Under the pieces are notes generated by a model that was not told the origin of the DNA, did not search any database, and saw nothing but the letters and a program-made list of their open reading frames with translations. A stretch of DNA of 40,909 nt from Akkermansia muciniphila. GTDB taxonomy: Bacteria; Verrucomicrobiota; Verrucomicrobiia; Limisphaerales; UBA1100. The number at the start of each line of letters is the position of its first letter. Within the stretch, counting starts at the first letter, position 1. Made by a program: the position numbers and the translations under genes. The DNA lies in assembly GCA_945903605.1 (NCBI GenBank), contig CAMDOH010000021.1, forward strand, positions 1 to 40,909. The letters are read 5' to 3'. This document shows, one piece after another, positions 29,539-40,909 of this stretch.

Positions 29539-29613
29539 GCGCGCTTAGCTCAGTGGTAGAGCATATCCTTCACACGGATGGGGTCGGAGGTTCAATCCCT
29601 TCAGCGCGTACCA
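29539..29613 (+). tRNA. tRNA-Val, anticodon CAC
   Basis: A full cloverleaf folds: a 7-bp acceptor stem (29539-29545 with 29603-29609, one G-U pair at the end), D stem GCTC/GAGC, a 5-bp anticodon stem around the loop TTCACAC, a 5-bp variable region, T stem with loop TTCAATC, discriminator A and an encoded CCA at 29611-29613. Anticodon CAC reads GUG. A35 and C36 are the expected valine identity bases. The rest of the 165-bp gap between nadB and the kinase gene shows no clear terminator. Confidence 0.95.
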
Positions 29614-34921: not shown

Positions 34922-36193
34922 TCAATTCCCAGCCACTTTATTTGAGATGCAATAAAGGTGCTGGTCGGCGCGGATGAAAATCTGGCCGTTGCTGATGGCG
35001 GGCGAGGAGTACACGCCTTCGCCCAATTCGTTTTTCGACACGAGTTCAAATTTCGCTCCTGGTTTCACAATCGTGGTCACACCGGCGTCGCTGATGAAAT
35101 AGACAAGGCCACCCACCGCGACGGGTGAGGCGTGATGCGCCCCGAGTTTTTCCTGCCAGAGCGGTTCGCCGGTCTTGGCAAGAAAACAATTGGCGTGGCC
35201 GGTGTCGGAGACAACGAGGAAGTGATCACCTTCGCTGATGGGCGAGGGGACGTATGAAACCATGCTCGGCCGCGTGTGATGCCAGGCCACCTGCGGCAGG
35301 TCTGTTTCCTGCACGTGCATGATATTGCCGAGGTCGCCCTTGCCGTCGTGTCTCAATCCCAAGAGATGATGCTGCGGAAATCCGCCGCTCATGAAAAGCA
35401 GATCGGCCTTGGCGTTATACACCAGCGACGCGACGAATTGTTCAGTCGGGCCTTTGATGTACCAGTGCGTCTTGCCGGTGTCGGGGTCGTAGCTGGCGAT
35501 GGATTTGTCGCCGGAAAGAATCATCTGCGTGCGGCCGGAAAGTTGGCGGATGATCGGCGCGCAATAGCTGCGGGTCTTGTTTGCGCGCGGTATTTTCCAG
35601 AGCGTCTTGCCAGTGTGCTTGTCCAGCGCGACGAGGTACGAATCACCGTCGTGATCGCCATTAACGATCAGCTTGTCGCCCCAAATCGTGGGCGAACTGC
35701 AAAAGCCGTGCACGCTTTTGAATTGGCCGGGGCGAACGAGCCATTTCTGTTTTCCCGCAAAATCATAAGCCGCCACCACCATTTCCTGCACGTCGAGGAA
35801 CGAGACGTACACGAGCGCTCCATCGGTCGCCGGCGTGCTTGATGCGTGACTATTCTCGCGGTGTTTGCGCTCGAGCGGCGACTTCACCACCGTGCGCTGC
35901 CAGAGAATGTTGCCGCTTGTGCGGTCGAGGCAAATCAGGTCGCGCCCCTCGGTTTCTTTGACTGCCGCCACGGTGAAAACGCGGTTGCCCCACACGATGG
36001 GCGAGGCATGGCCGCCACCGGGCAGTGCGGTTTTCCACAACACGTTTTCTGTCGCGCTCCATTTGACGGGCGCATTTTTCTCCGTACTGGAACCGTCATT
36101 GCGCGGCCCGCGCCACGCCGGCCAGTCTTCGGCAAGTGTGTTGAAGGCGAGCAGCAGTGTCAGGAGGATCGTTGAGGATGACTTCATGGGCAT
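34922..36193 (-). CDS. Secreted PQQ-type beta-propeller protein
   Basis: The 423-residue protein has a signal peptide (S-S-S-T-I-L-L-T-L-L-L-A-F-N-T-L-A) and repeating propeller blades with L-D-x-x-T/K-G-x-x-L-W, such as L-D-R-T-S-G-N-I-L-W and L-D-K-H-T-G-K-T-L-W. It opens with W-P-A-W-R-G-P, a frequent beginning of PVC PQQ-like repeat proteins. It resembles BamB-type propellers but lacks a lipoprotein cysteine. No quinoprotein catalytic site can be identified with confidence. The start used here (M-P-M-K-S) overlaps the stop of the upstream EboF-like gene as TGATG, implying translational coupling; M-K-S at 36187 is the alternative. Its role in that cluster is unknown. Confidence 0.85.
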   Translation of the reverse strand: MPMKSSSTILLTLLLAFNTLAEDWPAWRGPRNDGSSTEKNAPVKWSATENVLWKTALPGGGHASPIVWGNRVFTVAAVKETEGRDLICLDRTSGNILWQRTVVKSPLERKHRENSHASSTPATDGALVYVSFLDVQEMVVAAYDFAGKQKWLVRPGQFKSVHGFCSSPTIWGDKLIVNGDHDGDSYLVALDKHTGKTLWKIPRANKTRSYCAPIIRQLSGRTQMILSGDKSIASYDPDTGKTHWYIKGPTEQFVASLVYNAKADLLFMSGGFPQHHLLGLRHDGKGDLGNIMHVQETDLPQVAWHHTRPSMVSYVPSPISEGDHFLVVSDTGHANCFLAKTGEPLWQEKLGAHHASPVAVGGLVYFISDAGVTTIVKPGAKFELVSKNELGEGVYSSPAISNGQIFIRADQHLYCISNKVAGN

Positions 36194-37599
36194 CACGAGA
36201 GAATCCGACGTTGGATCACGTCGCAAACTTCAGTTGAGTCGAGTTGGGGTTGGGAGAGAAATGACGGATCATCGGCGATCAGGATCGGCCAGTCGGATTG
36301 GCTTTTGGGCCGGCAACCGTGCGAGCCTTTCACGAGCGTGGCATCGAGCGGGATGACATCCATGAGCATCCGAAAGCCGAGTTTCTTTTGCAGCAGACGC
36401 CAGAGAATCCGGAGCTTCACAGCGGGAATCGCGGGGTCGAGAAATAGCTCGACTGGGTCGTAGCCGGGCTTGCGATGGATGTCCACACATCGGGCGAAGT
36501 CCGGCGCGCGCACATCGTCCATCCAGTAATAATAAGTGAACCACGCAGTTTCCTGCGCGACCGCAACGAGATCGCCCGCGCGCTGATGATCCAGCCCCGC
36601 TGCCTTTTTCTCCGCTGCGCCGAGCACTTGCGCGACGCCTGGAGTTTTTTCCAAAAGGTCGCGCACCTTGTTTTCAATGCGACGGTCGTTCACGTAAATG
36701 TGTGCGAGTTGATGATCGGCCACGGCGAATGCCCGGCTGTTGCCACAGTCAAGCAACTCCAATCCCATCTCCTCTTTCACCGTGATCCAACCCTGCTCGC
36801 GAAACAGGCGATTGAGATGCACAGGCGTGTTCACGGTCGTGATGCCGTATTCCGAGAGCAGCAGCACACGCACGCCGCGTTTTTGGAAAAAGCTGATGAG
36901 GTCGCCGACAATCGCGTCCATCTCGCCGAGGTCTTTGGCGATGCGCGGATCATTCGGACCAAGCCGTTGCAGGTTGTAATCCAGATGCGGCAGATAGACG
37001 AGGTTGAGCGTGGGCGCTTTCTTTTCCTCGATCCACTTTGCCGATGCGGCGATCCAGCGCGTGACGCAATCAGCTTTGCCCTGCGGCGAATCCACACCCG
37101 CCGCCGGTCCCCAAAAGCCGGGGAATGGAAACTCGCCCAAGTCGCGCTTCAACTCGTCGCGCACATCGAAGGGCCACGCGTAAATGTCAAAAAGTTTTCG
37201 GCCGTCGGCCGGATACATCGGGCGCGGTGTGACCGACCAATCGGCGGTGGAATACATGTTGTACCACCAAAACATTTTTGCGCAGGTGAAGTCCGGCGAC
37301 TGCGCTCGCAGTGTCTCCCAGATTTTGGGTGCGGCAACCAGATGGTTGGACTGCTTCCAAAACTGAACTTCGGCAAGCTCACGATTGTACCAGCCATTGG
37401 CGACAATGCCGTGTGCGCTGGCAGTTTTGCCCGTGAGATAGGTGGACTGCGCGGTGCAGGTGACGGCCGGAAGCGCGGGTGCGATGTGCGCCAGCGCGCC
37501 GCTTTTTCGAAAGGCGTTGATGTGCGGCGTGTGCGGCCCGAGCAGGGATTCGGTGAGGCCGACGACGTTGAGGACGGCCGTGCGCCGCAGGTCAGCCAT
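36193..37599 (-). CDS. EboF-like alkaline-phosphatase-superfamily phosphodiesterase
   Basis: The 468-residue protein belongs to the type I phosphodiesterase/nucleotide pyrophosphatase group. It begins L-N-V-V-G-L-T and has P-A-V-T-C-T-A-Q-S-T-Y-L-T-G, where a Thr is the usual nucleophile, then A-H-G-I-V-A-N-G-W-Y, a L-P-H-L-D-Y metal-site segment and a C-terminal K-G-S-H-G. At the canonical S-D-H-G site it reads S-E-Y-G. No signal peptide is apparent, so it should be cytoplasmic. Overlap of 8 nt with the sugar-phosphate-cyclase-like gene upstream, and this sequence type, match the EboF/EboD pair of ebo clusters. In Nostoc that cluster helps move scytonemin precursors to the periplasm. The substrate here is unknown. 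Confidence 0.8.
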   Translation of the reverse strand: MADLRRTAVLNVVGLTESLLGPHTPHINAFRKSGALAHIAPALPAVTCTAQSTYLTGKTASAHGIVANGWYNRELAEVQFWKQSNHLVAAPKIWETLRAQSPDFTCAKMFWWYNMYSTADWSVTPRPMYPADGRKLFDIYAWPFDVRDELKRDLGEFPFPGFWGPAAGVDSPQGKADCVTRWIAASAKWIEEKKAPTLNLVYLPHLDYNLQRLGPNDPRIAKDLGEMDAIVGDLISFFQKRGVRVLLLSEYGITTVNTPVHLNRLFREQGWITVKEEMGLELLDCGNSRAFAVADHQLAHIYVNDRRIENKVRDLLEKTPGVAQVLGAAEKKAAGLDHQRAGDLVAVAQETAWFTYYYWMDDVRAPDFARCVDIHRKPGYDPVELFLDPAIPAVKLRILWRLLQKKLGFRMLMDVIPLDATLVKGSHGCRPKSQSDWPILIADDPSFLSQPQLDSTEVCDVIQRRILS

Positions 37600-38788
37600 G
37601 TGCGGGGATTATCTTGTGGCGGCCTTCGGCACGGTGGCGCTGCTCCAGTTCGCTCAGTGCTTCAAACACGCGCGGCCGGTGCATCTCGTGCGTTTCAAAA
37701 CCGGTGCCAATTTCGCGCAGCAACGTGATGGTGAGCTGGCCGCCCAAATGTTCGCGGAATTCCTCCAGCCCTTCGAGCAACATCAACTGGCCCTCGGTAT
37801 TCTCATGTAAAAGCTCACTCGACCACAGCGTGAAACCCAGCCTTTCGAGCAGGCGCAGAATGCGGTCGGCATCGGCGGCGGGCAGATGGCCCATCATGCG
37901 CGAGTAAATCACGTCGAGCGCAATGCCGATGGCGACGGCCTCGCCGTGGCGCAGGCGATATTCGGAAAGCTGTTCGAGTTTGTGCGCGGCCCAATGTCCA
38001 AAATCCAGCGGGCGCGCGGAGCCGAATTCAAACGGGTCGCCACTGGTGGCGATGTGATTCATGTGCAGCTCGGCGCAACGAAAGATGAGCCGGTGCATGG
38101 CGCTCGGCTCAAAATCACGCAGCGCATCGGCGTCGCGCTCGATCTCTTCGAAGAACGCGCGGTCGCGAATGCAGGCGACTTTCACAGCCTCGACGTAGCC
38201 GCTGCGTTTGTCGCGCGCGCTCAGTGTGGCGAGAAACTGAAAATCGTTGATGACGGCAAAGGGTGGCGAAAAACTGCCGATGAAATTCTTTTTGCCAAAG
38301 GCGTTGATACCGTTTTTGACACCGACGCCGGAGTCATTCTGACTGAGCGTGGTGGTGGGGATGCGCACGTGACGGATGCCGCGATGAGCTGTGGAGGCGG
38401 CCAGTCCCACCATGTCGAGCAACGCGCCGCCGCCCACGCAGATCAGGTACGAGTGGCGGTCGATGTGATGCCGGTCGATCTGCGAGTGGATTTCGGAAAC
38501 GTGAAAAAAGGCGTTCTTGGCGCGCTCGCCGCCCTCGATGATGAGGGGCGGGGAGACTAGGCTGATCGTGTCGGCGTGCGTTTTGAAGTAAGCGTGAATC
38601 TGCTGCACGAGCGTGGGCTGGGCCTTGGCCAGTGCTTCATCGAGCACGAGCAACGCCTTTCGGGGCAGCCGCGCCTCGCCATTGATCATCACCTCGCGCA
38701 GGCGCGGATTCTCTGCGTCAAACACGCCGTGGGTGAAATACACCTGATGGCGCCAGGCCACCGTGATGGTGCGTTCAATGGAAGGCAT
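37592..38788 (-). CDS. EboD-like sugar phosphate cyclase (dehydroquinate-synthase superfamily)
   Basis: The 398-residue protein has the dehydroquinate-synthase fold: NAD-site G-G-G-A-L-L-D-M-V-G, the R-I-P-T-T-T-L-S-Q-N-D-S-G-V-G-V-K-N-G-I-N loop, and three metal ligands in G-Y-V-E-A-V-K, D-F-G-H-W-A-A-H and R-H-G-E-A-V-A-I-G. True AroB usually reads D-S-S-V-G-G-K-T-G-V-N in the loop, so this is a paralogous cyclase rather than AroB. The start at 38788 (M-P-S-I-E-R-T) gives the usual N-terminus. It overlaps the EboF-like gene by 8 nt. No other ebo gene (EboA, B, C or E) is visible in the window. It should make a cyclitol- or DHQ-like ring product from a sugar phosphate, but the substrate is unknown. 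Confidence 0.85.
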   Translation of the reverse strand: MPSIERTITVAWRHQVYFTHGVFDAENPRLREVMINGEARLPRKALLVLDEALAKAQPTLVQQIHAYFKTHADTISLVSPPLIIEGGERAKNAFFHVSEIHSQIDRHHIDRHSYLICVGGGALLDMVGLAASTAHRGIRHVRIPTTTLSQNDSGVGVKNGINAFGKKNFIGSFSPPFAVINDFQFLATLSARDKRSGYVEAVKVACIRDRAFFEEIERDADALRDFEPSAMHRLIFRCAELHMNHIATSGDPFEFGSARPLDFGHWAAHKLEQLSEYRLRHGEAVAIGIALDVIYSRMMGHLPAADADRILRLLERLGFTLWSSELLHENTEGQLMLLEGLEEFREHLGGQLTITLLREIGTGFETHEMHRPRVFEALSELEQRHRAEGRHKIIPAHG

Positions 38789-38842
38789 GTGCGGGAGGTT
38801 ATCAAATTTCACGTGCAAATCAAGACGTCACACCGGCGCGAT

Positions 38843-39916
38843 TTATTTAGCCGGTTCGTAGAGGAGCACGTCGTCGATGAGCAGGTCGGCCTGGCGATCG
38901 AGCAGAATATGGATCTCGTCCACGTGCGCCGGCTGGTTGCCGGGCAGGAGCGGTGAGGGGAAGGCGATGGCCACGTCGTCCCATTTTTGCGTGGCGGAAT
39001 TGGGGATGCGCGCACCGTGCTCGCGGCCGGTCTTGGAGTTGACGAGTTTGACGGTGAGCTTCGCCTCCGCAGAAAGATGGTAACGAAAGAAGAGCGTATT
39101 CTTTGCGCTCAAGGCACGCGGCCCGCGCAGTTGCAGGCGAATCCACGGCAGGCCGCCTTCGGGGTGCGGCACGGATCGGGCGGCGTCCCACGTGCGCGGT
39201 TTTTGGTGCAGCACAATGTCAAAATTCCCCGGCCATTCGGCGCCCTGCTTGCCGGTGTCAAACCATCCGGTGAAGATGATGCGGCGAGGGAATGCCTCCG
39301 GCTCTTTTTCCGGCGCGGCCTCATAGAGCACGATGTCGTCGATGAGGAGTTCCGTTTCGGGCGTGACATAAAACTGGATGTCATCAATGCGCTCATCCTC
39401 CGCCAGCGGCCCTCCACTGCCATCGGGTCGTCGCGCCTGCGTCATGTCCACCGTGGTCGACTGCCACCGGCCTTGCGGCAATCCCTCGATCACCAGATGG
39501 CGGTGATAGTTTTTACTGAGACTGTAAATCTGCACGCGCAACGTGCCGGTGCCTTTCATCCAGTATCGGAAGGACAACCGCGTGCGCGGCCCCATCGGAG
39601 GGCCGGGTACGGGATTGAAAATCACCGCGTTGTAGCGCGCGGCGGGGTCGCCCATCTTGTCGTCAAAATCTTTCGTGGGCGTGGCGCGGCAAGCACGGGT
39701 GTTTCGCAGCGAAACCGAAAGACTGGCAGGCAGATTGGTGGTGACGGGCGCACCGCGCAGCCACCAACGCTTCTCGATCTCCGTCTCATAATCCTCAAAA
39801 ACATGCACGCGCAGAGGCATTGCGCCCTGCGGAATCGGCTTGGCCAGATTCGGTGCTGGAGCCGCGGCCAACGGCGCAGCCACAAGCCAGAGTATGGAGA
39901 GCAATCGCAGCTTCAT
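38843..39916 (-). CDS. Secreted two-unit beta-sandwich protein of unknown function
   Basis: I do not recognise the family. The 357-residue protein has a signal peptide (M-K-L-R-L-L-S-I-L-W-L-V-A-A-P-L-A-A-A) and two related halves. Each ends in a near-identical strand, L-L-I-D-D-I-V-L-Y-E (about residue 191) and L-L-I-D-D-V-L-L-Y-E (about residue 345), after a D-D-I-Q-F/D-E-I-H-I-L segment. Such L-x-I-D-D-x-x-L-Y-E endings are common in carbohydrate-binding-module-like jelly rolls. It lies 54 nt upstream of the EboD-like gene and 16 nt after yhbY on the same strand, so it may be part of that transcript. No catalytic motif is visible. Confidence 0.75.
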   Translation of the reverse strand: MKLRLLSILWLVAAPLAAAPAPNLAKPIPQGAMPLRVHVFEDYETEIEKRWWLRGAPVTTNLPASLSVSLRNTRACRATPTKDFDDKMGDPAARYNAVIFNPVPGPPMGPRTRLSFRYWMKGTGTLRVQIYSLSKNYHRHLVIEGLPQGRWQSTTVDMTQARRPDGSGGPLAEDERIDDIQFYVTPETELLIDDIVLYEAAPEKEPEAFPRRIIFTGWFDTGKQGAEWPGNFDIVLHQKPRTWDAARSVPHPEGGLPWIRLQLRGPRALSAKNTLFFRYHLSAEAKLTVKLVNSKTGREHGARIPNSATQKWDDVAIAFPSPLLPGNQPAHVDEIHILLDRQADLLIDDVLLYEPAK

Positions 39917-39932: not shown

Positions 39933-40211
39933 TCATTTGTTGGGCGGTTTCTTGCGGTAGATGACGGCGACGTGGCCGATGAGCCAGACGAGTTGGGAAT
40001 CTGTTTTTTGGGCGAGTTCAGCGGCCAAGGTTTTTTTCTGCTCCTTGAGATTGGAAAGTCGAACTTTCAATAGTTCGTGACTGGCAAAGGCAGTGTTGAC
40101 GGTATTGATGAATGAATCGGTGAGTCCGAGTTTGCCGATGCTCAATGTCGCATCCAGCCGTTGAGCGAGGGATTTGAGATGGCGCCGTTCTGCGTTAGTA
40201 AGTGTTGTCAT
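39933..40211 (-). CDS. yhbY: YhbY-family CRM-domain RNA-binding protein
   Basis: The 92-residue protein has the YhbY pattern: L-T-N-A-E-R-R-H-L-K-S-L-A-Q-R-L-D, then S-I-G-K-L-G-L-T-D-S-F-I near the middle, then H-E-L-L-K-V-R-L and the closing Q-L-V-W-L-I-G-H-V-A-V-I-Y-R. YhbY binds the precursor of the large ribosomal subunit. Length fits the family (about 95). The ATG at 40211 has no Shine-Dalgarno. It heads the leftward block with the beta-sandwich gene, with only 16 nt between them. Confidence 0.92.
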   Translation of the reverse strand: MTTLTNAERRHLKSLAQRLDATLSIGKLGLTDSFINTVNTAFASHELLKVRLSNLKEQKKTLAAELAQKTDSQLVWLIGHVAVIYRKKPPNK

Positions 40212-40254: not shown

Positions 40255-40389
40255 ATGCTAGGGAAAACGCGGTACTCATGGCATCATCACTGCTCTGTAC
40301 TCGTAGAAAACAGGCGGAATGAGCAGAAAAATGAAACCACTCGCCGCCGAACCCGTCAAACAACGCAGGCTTTACTCTGTATTGTCTGA
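40255..40389 (+). CDS. Possible 44-residue small ORF with strong Shine-Dalgarno
   Basis: A 44-codon frame begins at ATG 40255 with AAGGAG at 40244-40249, 5 nt before it, the best Shine-Dalgarno on this strand. The product is basic (R-Y-S-W-H-H-H near the start, R-R-R-T-R-Q-T-T near the end), with no signal peptide or recognised family. It ends 18 nt before the Gly/Met-rich gene and could be a leader peptide or small protein. The candidate promoter of that gene lies inside its end. Codon usage is too short to judge, so the call rests only on the ribosome site. Confidence 0.25.
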   Translation: MLGKTRYSWHHHCSVLVENRRNEQKNETTRRRTRQTTQALLCIV

Positions 40390-40398
40390 TGATAGAAT
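40371..40398 (+). promoter_or_regulatory. Candidate promoter of the Gly/Met-rich protein gene
   Basis: TTTACT at 40371-40376 (4 of 6) and TAGAAT at 40393-40398 (5 of 6) are spaced by 16 bp. The expected start, near 40405, would leave a leader of only about 3 nt before the ATG at 40408. The rest of the 196-bp gap contains only the possible small ORF. Confidence 0.45.
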
Positions 40399-40407
40399 AA
40401 CGAAGGT

Positions 40408-40909
40408 ATGAAAAGATTGCCGATAGTCCTCATCTTGGCGGTTTATCTGTGCGGTTCCGGCACGGCGACAAACCTGTTTGCCCAATTCATGAATGGATCC
40501 GGTGGAATGGGCGGAATGGGCGGAATGGGCGGTGGCATGATGGGCGGTCAAGGCGGCTTTGGTGGAGGAATGGGACAAGGCGGATTTGGCGGTGGGATGG
40601 GTGGCATGGGGGGAATGAATGGTGGAATGGGCGGCTTTGGCGGCCAAGGAGGATTTGGCCAAGGTGGAATGGGTGGTTTTGGTGGAGGAATGGGTCAAGG
40701 CGGCTTTGGTGGAGGGATGGGTGGCATGGGGGGAATGAATGGTGGAATGGGCGGCTTTGGCGGCCAAGGTGGATTTGGCGGTGGGATGGGACAAGGCGGT
40801 ATGGGAGGCTTTGGAAACCAAATGGGTGGTGGAGGACAAAACAACAATGGTGGCGGCCGGCCCCGAGGTGGAGGCAGAAATAACGGAGGTGGAGGCAGAA
40901 ATAATAATG
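40408..40909 (+). CDS. Secreted Gly/Met-rich low-complexity repeat protein, 3' end cut by window edge
   Basis: The frame is open to the right edge, so only 167 residues are visible. It begins with a signal peptide (M-K-R-L-P-I-V-L-I-L-A-V-Y-L-C-G), then a stretch made almost only of Gly, Met, Phe, Gln and Asn in units such as G-G-M-G-G-M-G and G-G-F-G-G-Q-G. The last visible part changes to Asn/Arg-rich G-G-G-R-N-N. A 120-bp segment is duplicated in tandem. Frames on both strands that overlap it are by-products of this composition. The sequence suggests an extracellular, flexible or aggregating material; no function can be assigned. A candidate promoter lies 10 bp upstream of the start codon. 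Confidence 0.8.
   Translation, partial: MKRLPIVLILAVYLCGSGTATNLFAQFMNGSGGMGGMGGMGGGMMGGQGGFGGGMGQGGFGGGMGGMGGMNGGMGGFGGQGGFGQGGMGGFGGGMGQGGFGGGMGGMGGMNGGMGGFGGQGGFGGGMGQGGMGGFGNQMGGGGQNNNGGGRPRGGGRNNGGGGRNNN
40558..40797 (+). repeat. Tandem 120-bp duplication inside the Gly/Met-rich gene
   Basis: Bases 40558-40677 and 40678-40797 are two adjacent units of exactly 120 bp (40 codons) that are almost identical for about the first 100 bases, differing at a few third-codon positions, and then diverge. The period being a multiple of three keeps the frame. Smaller GGN-ATG-rich motifs repeat within each unit. Confidence 0.9.

Follow-up and report, generated by a model that had tools for sequence, protein, structure and literature searches.

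At the right-hand end of the window, by which we mean the whole 40,909-bp stretch of DNA analysed here (the complete contig C21 of a 2.68-Mb genome in 135 contigs), lies the start of a gene for a low-complexity, probably exported protein rich in glycine, methionine and phenylalanine. Its internal repeat with a period of 120 bp is a real duplication of the DNA, and the differences between the repeat copies show, at the level of sequence, that the frame is translated and that selection acts on the repeated unit. The adhesive or matrix material proposed in a first-pass annotation is still the best guess for its role. We infer, with a confidence of about one half, that the protein is an exported structural component of the cell surface or extracellular matrix that forms a soft, self-associating polymer.

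The repeat gene at the contig end

The reading frame occupies positions 40408..40908 on the + strand and comprises 167 codons (167 aa), open at the 3′ end, where the contig end cuts it; as the window is the whole of C21, nothing lies to the right of the repeat gene. The sequence beyond this edge, which the first-pass annotation had asked for, was sought in the same genome and no continuation was found there: a 22-base pattern modelled on the contig end matched only C21 itself (up to two mismatches allowed), and neither the central piece of the complete protein of a relative, G001, nor the motif pattern FNNxYPKG (both described below) gave a match. A promoter-like site at 40371–40398 was considered and set aside; the region holds two such sites where 0.6 are expected, and we claim no promoter.

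The protein begins with a presumed signal peptide (40408..40482, +), a hydrophobic N-terminus modelled as helix over residues 4–16 and 19–28, with the cut placed by eye between LFA and QF. Ala-Gln stands at this place in nine of the ten family copies compared by eye, the G002 copy being the one without it. The signal peptide that had been annotated, and with it export, is likely, with both the signal and its cleavage read by eye. Two clean copies of a 34-codon unit follow at 40558..40659 and 40678..40779 (+; TRF and register comparison), and the end of the frame (40834..40908, +) is the Asn/Arg/Gly-rich part of GGRNN type that the first-pass annotation had described, holding a 21-bp tandem repeat at 40865–40904 that adjoins the contig end.

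TRF reports the repeat at 40558–40779 with a period of 120, 1.9 copies, 95% matches and 0% indels. The earlier claim was of an exact-period duplication over 40558–40797 in which a 40-codon unit recurs with near-perfect identity. Period and repeat are both real; over that span, however, an in-register comparison finds only 101 of 120 bases identical, since the two copies arrange Gly, Met and Gln differently in the final six codons of the unit, and the cleanly duplicated stretch is 34 codons long, with 97 of 102 bases and 34 of 34 residues identical and five synonymous differences. When the sequence is compared with itself at a lag of 40 codons, the identity is 0.951, whereas 2,000 synonymous-codon shuffles that keep the protein average 0.846 and do not exceed 0.912; the best 30-codon match is 0.956, and codon-order shuffles (n = 300) reach at most 0.70. 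Since no synonymous shuffle attains 0.951, it is the DNA itself that has been duplicated, beyond what shared protein composition would produce.

All five differences between the clean copies are at third positions of Gly codons, giving, for this one pair of copies, a dS of about 0.24 (24.3 synonymous sites) with a dN of 0; with equal rates assumed, the probability of five random changes all being silent is ~8e-4. The same differences alter no residue in the + frame and 5, 5, 5, 5 and 2 residues in the other five frames, and it is therefore the + frame that is translated. The copies are accordingly not very young and the unit has been preserved at the protein level, so that the recent expansion previously read from their low divergence gives way to an older duplication with its protein sequence kept. 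Creation of the duplicate by assembly is unlikely because the copies differ at these five sites. Barely credible, for its part, is the notion that the + frame goes untranslated and that the antisense frame, or no frame at all, is the gene: an open antisense frame does exist and is longer (178 aa, 5′-open), but the silence of the repeat differences in the + frame and the existence in relatives of counterparts with a similar N-terminus both speak against it.

The presumed mature part visible in the window (142 residues) is composed of 84 Gly (59%), 20 Met, 12 Asn, 10 Phe, 10 Gln, 4 Arg, 1 Ser and 1 Pro, with no Lys, Asp, Glu, Cys, Tyr or Trp, and contains Gly-dominated repeats. Of the 38 steps from one non-Gly residue to the next, 22 are of three positions, the Gly-Gly-X pattern, against a mean of 5.6 and a maximum of 14 in shuffles, none of 5,000 reaching the observed count; with one repeat copy removed the spacing persists in 14 of 26 steps, again reached by none of 5,000 shuffles. 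No confident fold was predicted for the window ORF (mean pLDDT of 49, no residue at 90 or above), which, coming from a single-sequence run, is weak evidence, and scans of three of the ten copies (the window ORF and those of G001 and G019) against Pfam and NCBIfam returned no families.

A proposed family defined by position and layout

Contig C14 of G001, which belongs to a different genus of the same family, is collinear with the window over about 37 kb in strictly reversed order and matches 26 of the 31 non-overlapping window ORFs of at least 90 codons. For one of the 26 there is also a second match, out of order and at 31%; among the five unmatched ORFs, two would fall outside the compared G001 stretch and one is the antisense frame of the repeat gene. 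The block ends in G001 with the counterpart (74.5% identical over 330 residues) of the window protein at 38843..39916 (−; 357 aa, no family). About 5.7 kb past the block, and in the same relative orientation as in the window, G001 carries a complete repeat gene of the same layout (L028:4230–5408, 351 aa from the first ATG), whose product has a hydrophobic N-terminus, GMGG/FGNG repeats, Asn/Arg/Gln-rich blocks, a less repetitive centre and then more Asn, Gln and Gly.

Between the block and the repeat gene, gene content and order differ. G001 has genes there for a hydrolase-like protein (Pfam match below cut-off), a putative lipoprotein (by eye) and an HZS_alpha-domain protein. The intervening gene of the window, a divergent neighbour of the repeat gene that we give for context only, encodes a CRS1/YhbY RNA-binding domain protein (39933..40211, −; PF01985, 3e-24). 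YhbY/CRM proteins were detected at E ≤ 1e-3 in one of 20 genomes of the family, the window's own, as against nine of 20 genomes from elsewhere in the order; the family may have lost the gene, or the window genome may have gained it. Elsewhere in the window, at 36193–38818 (−), a dehydroquinate-synthase-like gene (NF004852 PRK06203, 1.8e-171) adjoins a type I phosphodiesterase gene (PF01663, 3.2e-60), a pair reminiscent of the ebo gene cluster, and a tRNA gene at 29539–29610 (+) is the only Rfam match in the window at the gathering threshold.

Eight further genomes (G002, G004, G006, G007, G009, G011, G012 and G019) carry a repeat gene no more than 3.3 kb from one ATP-grasp gene (PF07478) and on its strand. 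This ATP-grasp gene is 69–95% identical to the G011 query in the eight genomes, with only 60 of its residues on the contig in G007. With the window and G001 added, the 20 family genomes examined yield ten copies; no repeat gene of this type was found in the other ten, which carries little weight as the genomes are fragmented. The repeat genes of G007 and G011 adjoin a gamma-glutamyltranspeptidase gene and a hydrolase-like gene, the latter, with the G007 query, being 81% identical in G011 and 57% in G001. Two of the family genomes agree base for base with public records along the compared segments: G013 with CALKBX010000005.1 (uncultured Verrucomicrobiae bacterium FRAM_RAS_EGC1617_bin25; 8,000 bases) and G007 with JAPKDK010000316.1 (Verrucomicrobiota bacterium ANT-88; 3,088 bases); to judge by these isolate names, they may come from polar seas.

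Such neighbours could mean that the ATP-grasp ligase, the gamma-glutamyltranspeptidase and a Peptidase_Mx protein cross-link, extend or cut the repeat protein, which would then be their substrate or precursor. The constancy of the ATP-grasp gene at eight of ten copies, the presence between the two genes of the gamma-glutamyltranspeptidase (PF01019) or a close counterpart in G002, G004, G007, G009 and G011, and a Peptidase_Mx gene (PF15887) in G004, the one genome scanned for it, are consistent with this. We nevertheless consider it improbable: the close ATP-grasp gene was not detected in the window genome or G001 (best matches 29% and 26%), and both keep the repeat gene.

Between genera, the repeat units, composition and, where it can be seen, length of these proteins are strongly divergent. 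The units are of GMGG/FGGQ type in the window, NNQ in G001, GNNNFGGNR and then GGMN in G011, MQGG and then QQQG in G019, and GGGATRPA in G002. Across the ten copies Gly ranges over 26–51%, Met over 5–24%, Asn over 0–20% and Gln over 1–31%, rough figures, since nine of them come from N-terminal fragments and those for G006 and G019 take in some codons upstream of the start.

This variation bears on whether the methionines are the working part of the protein, as an exported oxidant sink or as thioether sites for soft metals such as copper and silver. The 20 Met in the 142 presumed mature residues would suit such a role, and the available excerpt of a study of Bacillus cereus proposes that Met residues of exported proteins act as an antioxidant store (PMC5526929). 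The complete G001 copy, however, is mainly Gly, Asn and Gln with 5% Met, against up to 24% in N-terminal fragments; the visible mature part of the window protein has no Cys, and the spacing needs none; and the annotated neighbours include no oxidant or metal gene that we noticed. Metal binding and oxidant scavenging, both floated in the first-pass annotation, are thereby weakened, and we regard a working role for the methionines as unlikely, if somewhat less so than a role as enzyme substrate.

The copies of G001 and G019, the only two long enough, have in common a centre FNNxYPKG, with an alignment score of 55 where the best of 5,000 shuffles scores 52. The corresponding DNA pattern occurs exactly in two of 98 genomes, at the G001 and G019 loci only; with one mismatch it also occurs in G046, which equals the level of a reversed-pattern control (one match, G054). 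The case for the family is thus built on position, layout and one motif, because low complexity defeats ordinary homology tests. As the window copy ends before the FNNxYPKG centre, its putative membership is drawn from synteny with G001 and from layout. A contig end cuts into nine of the ten copies, so that gene catalogues from fragmented genomes would truncate or miss such proteins, a blind spot of catalogues of this kind.

A protein search of 20 relatives gave one weak match besides the window, in G004 at 4.1e-4, with which gene order later agreed. Among 196 genomes of the order, only that of the window has the exact pattern for GMGGFGGQGGFG; 594 pattern stretches in named genomes included none confirmed by tblastn; and plasmids (protein mode) and phages (DNA, distant mode) gave no match.

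A possible exported material and its comparisons

If the protein is the matrix component that we favour, its N-terminus would act as a signal peptide for export, and the mature chain would either be unfolded or adopt polyproline-II-like Gly-Gly-X helices. Met and Phe would serve as evenly spaced hydrophobic stickers, with chains held together by Met/Phe contacts, and the Arg/Asn part would be a hydrophilic block, perhaps in contact with anionic polysaccharide. A soft, elastic or adhesive layer would arise from the association of many such chains. Selection would act on composition and spacing, and the repeats would therefore be able to grow and turn over by recombination. Several points can be set against this reading: a folded domain could lie in the unseen 3′ part of the window gene, the genes between the collinear block and the repeat gene are not those of G001, low-complexity sequences can resemble each other without common descent, and GMGG sequences are common in proteins of no relation.

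The closest texture is that of abductin, the animal protein of the elastic scallop hinge, which the excerpted text of a review (PMC13052691) presents as a Gly/Met-rich, random-coil rubber with the consensus GGFGGMGGGX. A second partial source, PMC12571646, names abductin and the snow-flea antifreeze protein as Gly-rich helix bundles, so that the two accounts differ as far as these excerpts go. In the excerpts, abductin resembles the window protein in being rich in Gly, Met and Phe, in having almost no Pro and spaced large residues, and in its presumed disorder. The exact GGFGGMGGG is absent from the window ORF, which has five near variants (GGFGG+MG), and this exact core occurs in one of 276 loci compared. 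Abductin has an N-terminal domain with conserved Cys and Tyr according to the same excerpted material, whereas the 142 visible mature residues of the window protein contain neither, and abductin is Phe rich where most other copies of the window family have little or no Phe. Judged by sequence, the resemblance is one of texture rather than descent, and the window protein is not a member of the abductins.

The Gly/Met-rich tails of GroEL and mHsp60, which adopt polyproline-II helices according to the excerpt of PMC12571646, are similar in their Gly/Met repeats and Gly-Gly-X spacing. Unlike the chaperonins, the window ORF has no chaperonin domain (no Pfam match), begins with a hydrophobic N-terminus and has a far longer repeat part, and on this domain content it is not a GroEL/Hsp60 protein with a GGM tail. 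NU-5, an insoluble Met-rich shell protein of the pearl oyster, has Met-rich low-complexity parts that the excerpt of PMC7591529 ties to aggregation and scaffolds; compared by description only, it differs in being an animal protein with acidic parts and a calcium response.

The general kind to which the window protein belongs, a Gly-rich low-complexity protein, is ordinary; what is unusual is the Met/Phe texture and the turnover of the repeats at a kept place. A bolder and doubtful extension is that the family is a bacterial counterpart of abductin by convergence: an exported Gly/Met/Phe elastomer or adhesive that would coat verrucomicrobial cells, encoded at one genomic place with a rewritten repeat alphabet (Met/Phe, Asn, Gln, or Ala/Arg/Pro blocks) and overlooked as assemblies break inside it. 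If the matrix reading is right, the family would offer a natural bacterial series of Gly-Gly-X materials, constant in place and layout and varying in chemistry, from which to learn which features of such polymers are selected. Among the papers listed in searches of the open-licence literature, none described the window protein or abductin-like bacterial proteins, nor the other Gly/Met proteins treated below.

GMGG sequences in other proteins

A scan of named genomes with a GMGG pattern returned at least 119 stretches, including chaperonin tails, secretins and many planctomycete proteins. The pattern GGGMGGMGG was found in nine of 20 genomes of the family and four of 38 others of the order, with one match for a reversed-pattern control, and is thus concentrated in the bacterial family of the window; part of these matches are secretin-like proteins or proteins referred to here as class A, and are not copies of the window gene.

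Long GMGG insertions occur in L067 (G008), L068 (G020) and L069 (G053), which by eye we presume to be secretin-like. They lend some colour to the alternative that the repeat protein is a partner of a type II/IV secretin or of another envelope machine. We hold this to be very improbable, since a reading of the stretches around the ten copies brought no adjacent secretin gene to notice, and GMGG sequences are found in chaperonin tails as well.

Class A proteins resemble the window protein in their hydrophobic N-terminus, often ending in ...AQF, and in their GMGG repeats. They differ in a conserved non-repetitive stretch, Y-x-GVN ... QLQYTAQMAA, which is 38–44% identical to the window-genome row in a four-row alignment and which, by eye, occurs neither in the 167 visible residues of the window protein nor in its complete G001 counterpart. 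A C-terminal LR motif common to class A and the window family was tried and is not claimed: its score is reached by 3 to 1,297 of 2,000 shuffles over ten pairs, and the counts for the four pairs that involve the G001 copy are 26, 38, 60 and 447 of 2,000.

The class A gene of the window genome (G000) is in two pieces, a 5′ part at the left end of C15 (C15:1–1066) and a 3′ part at the right end of C5 (L002, L003), which are probably one gene split by assembly. Besides these, class A genes are, on a simple listing, often at contig ends (C44 and C87 of G001, C44 of G004, C115 of G005, C80 of G011, C26 of G016, C96 of G010 and C100 of G003); that of G013 is an exception, lying on a 483-kb contig. 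In this G013 gene (C5; L038, L062) two reading frames alternate inside the Gly/Met repeats, reflecting either repeat frameshifts or sequencing errors. At the end of G003 C100, L238 begins like a class A gene but then continues into a hydrophobic stretch and a basic tail that runs to the contig end, and is either a real variant or an assembly join.
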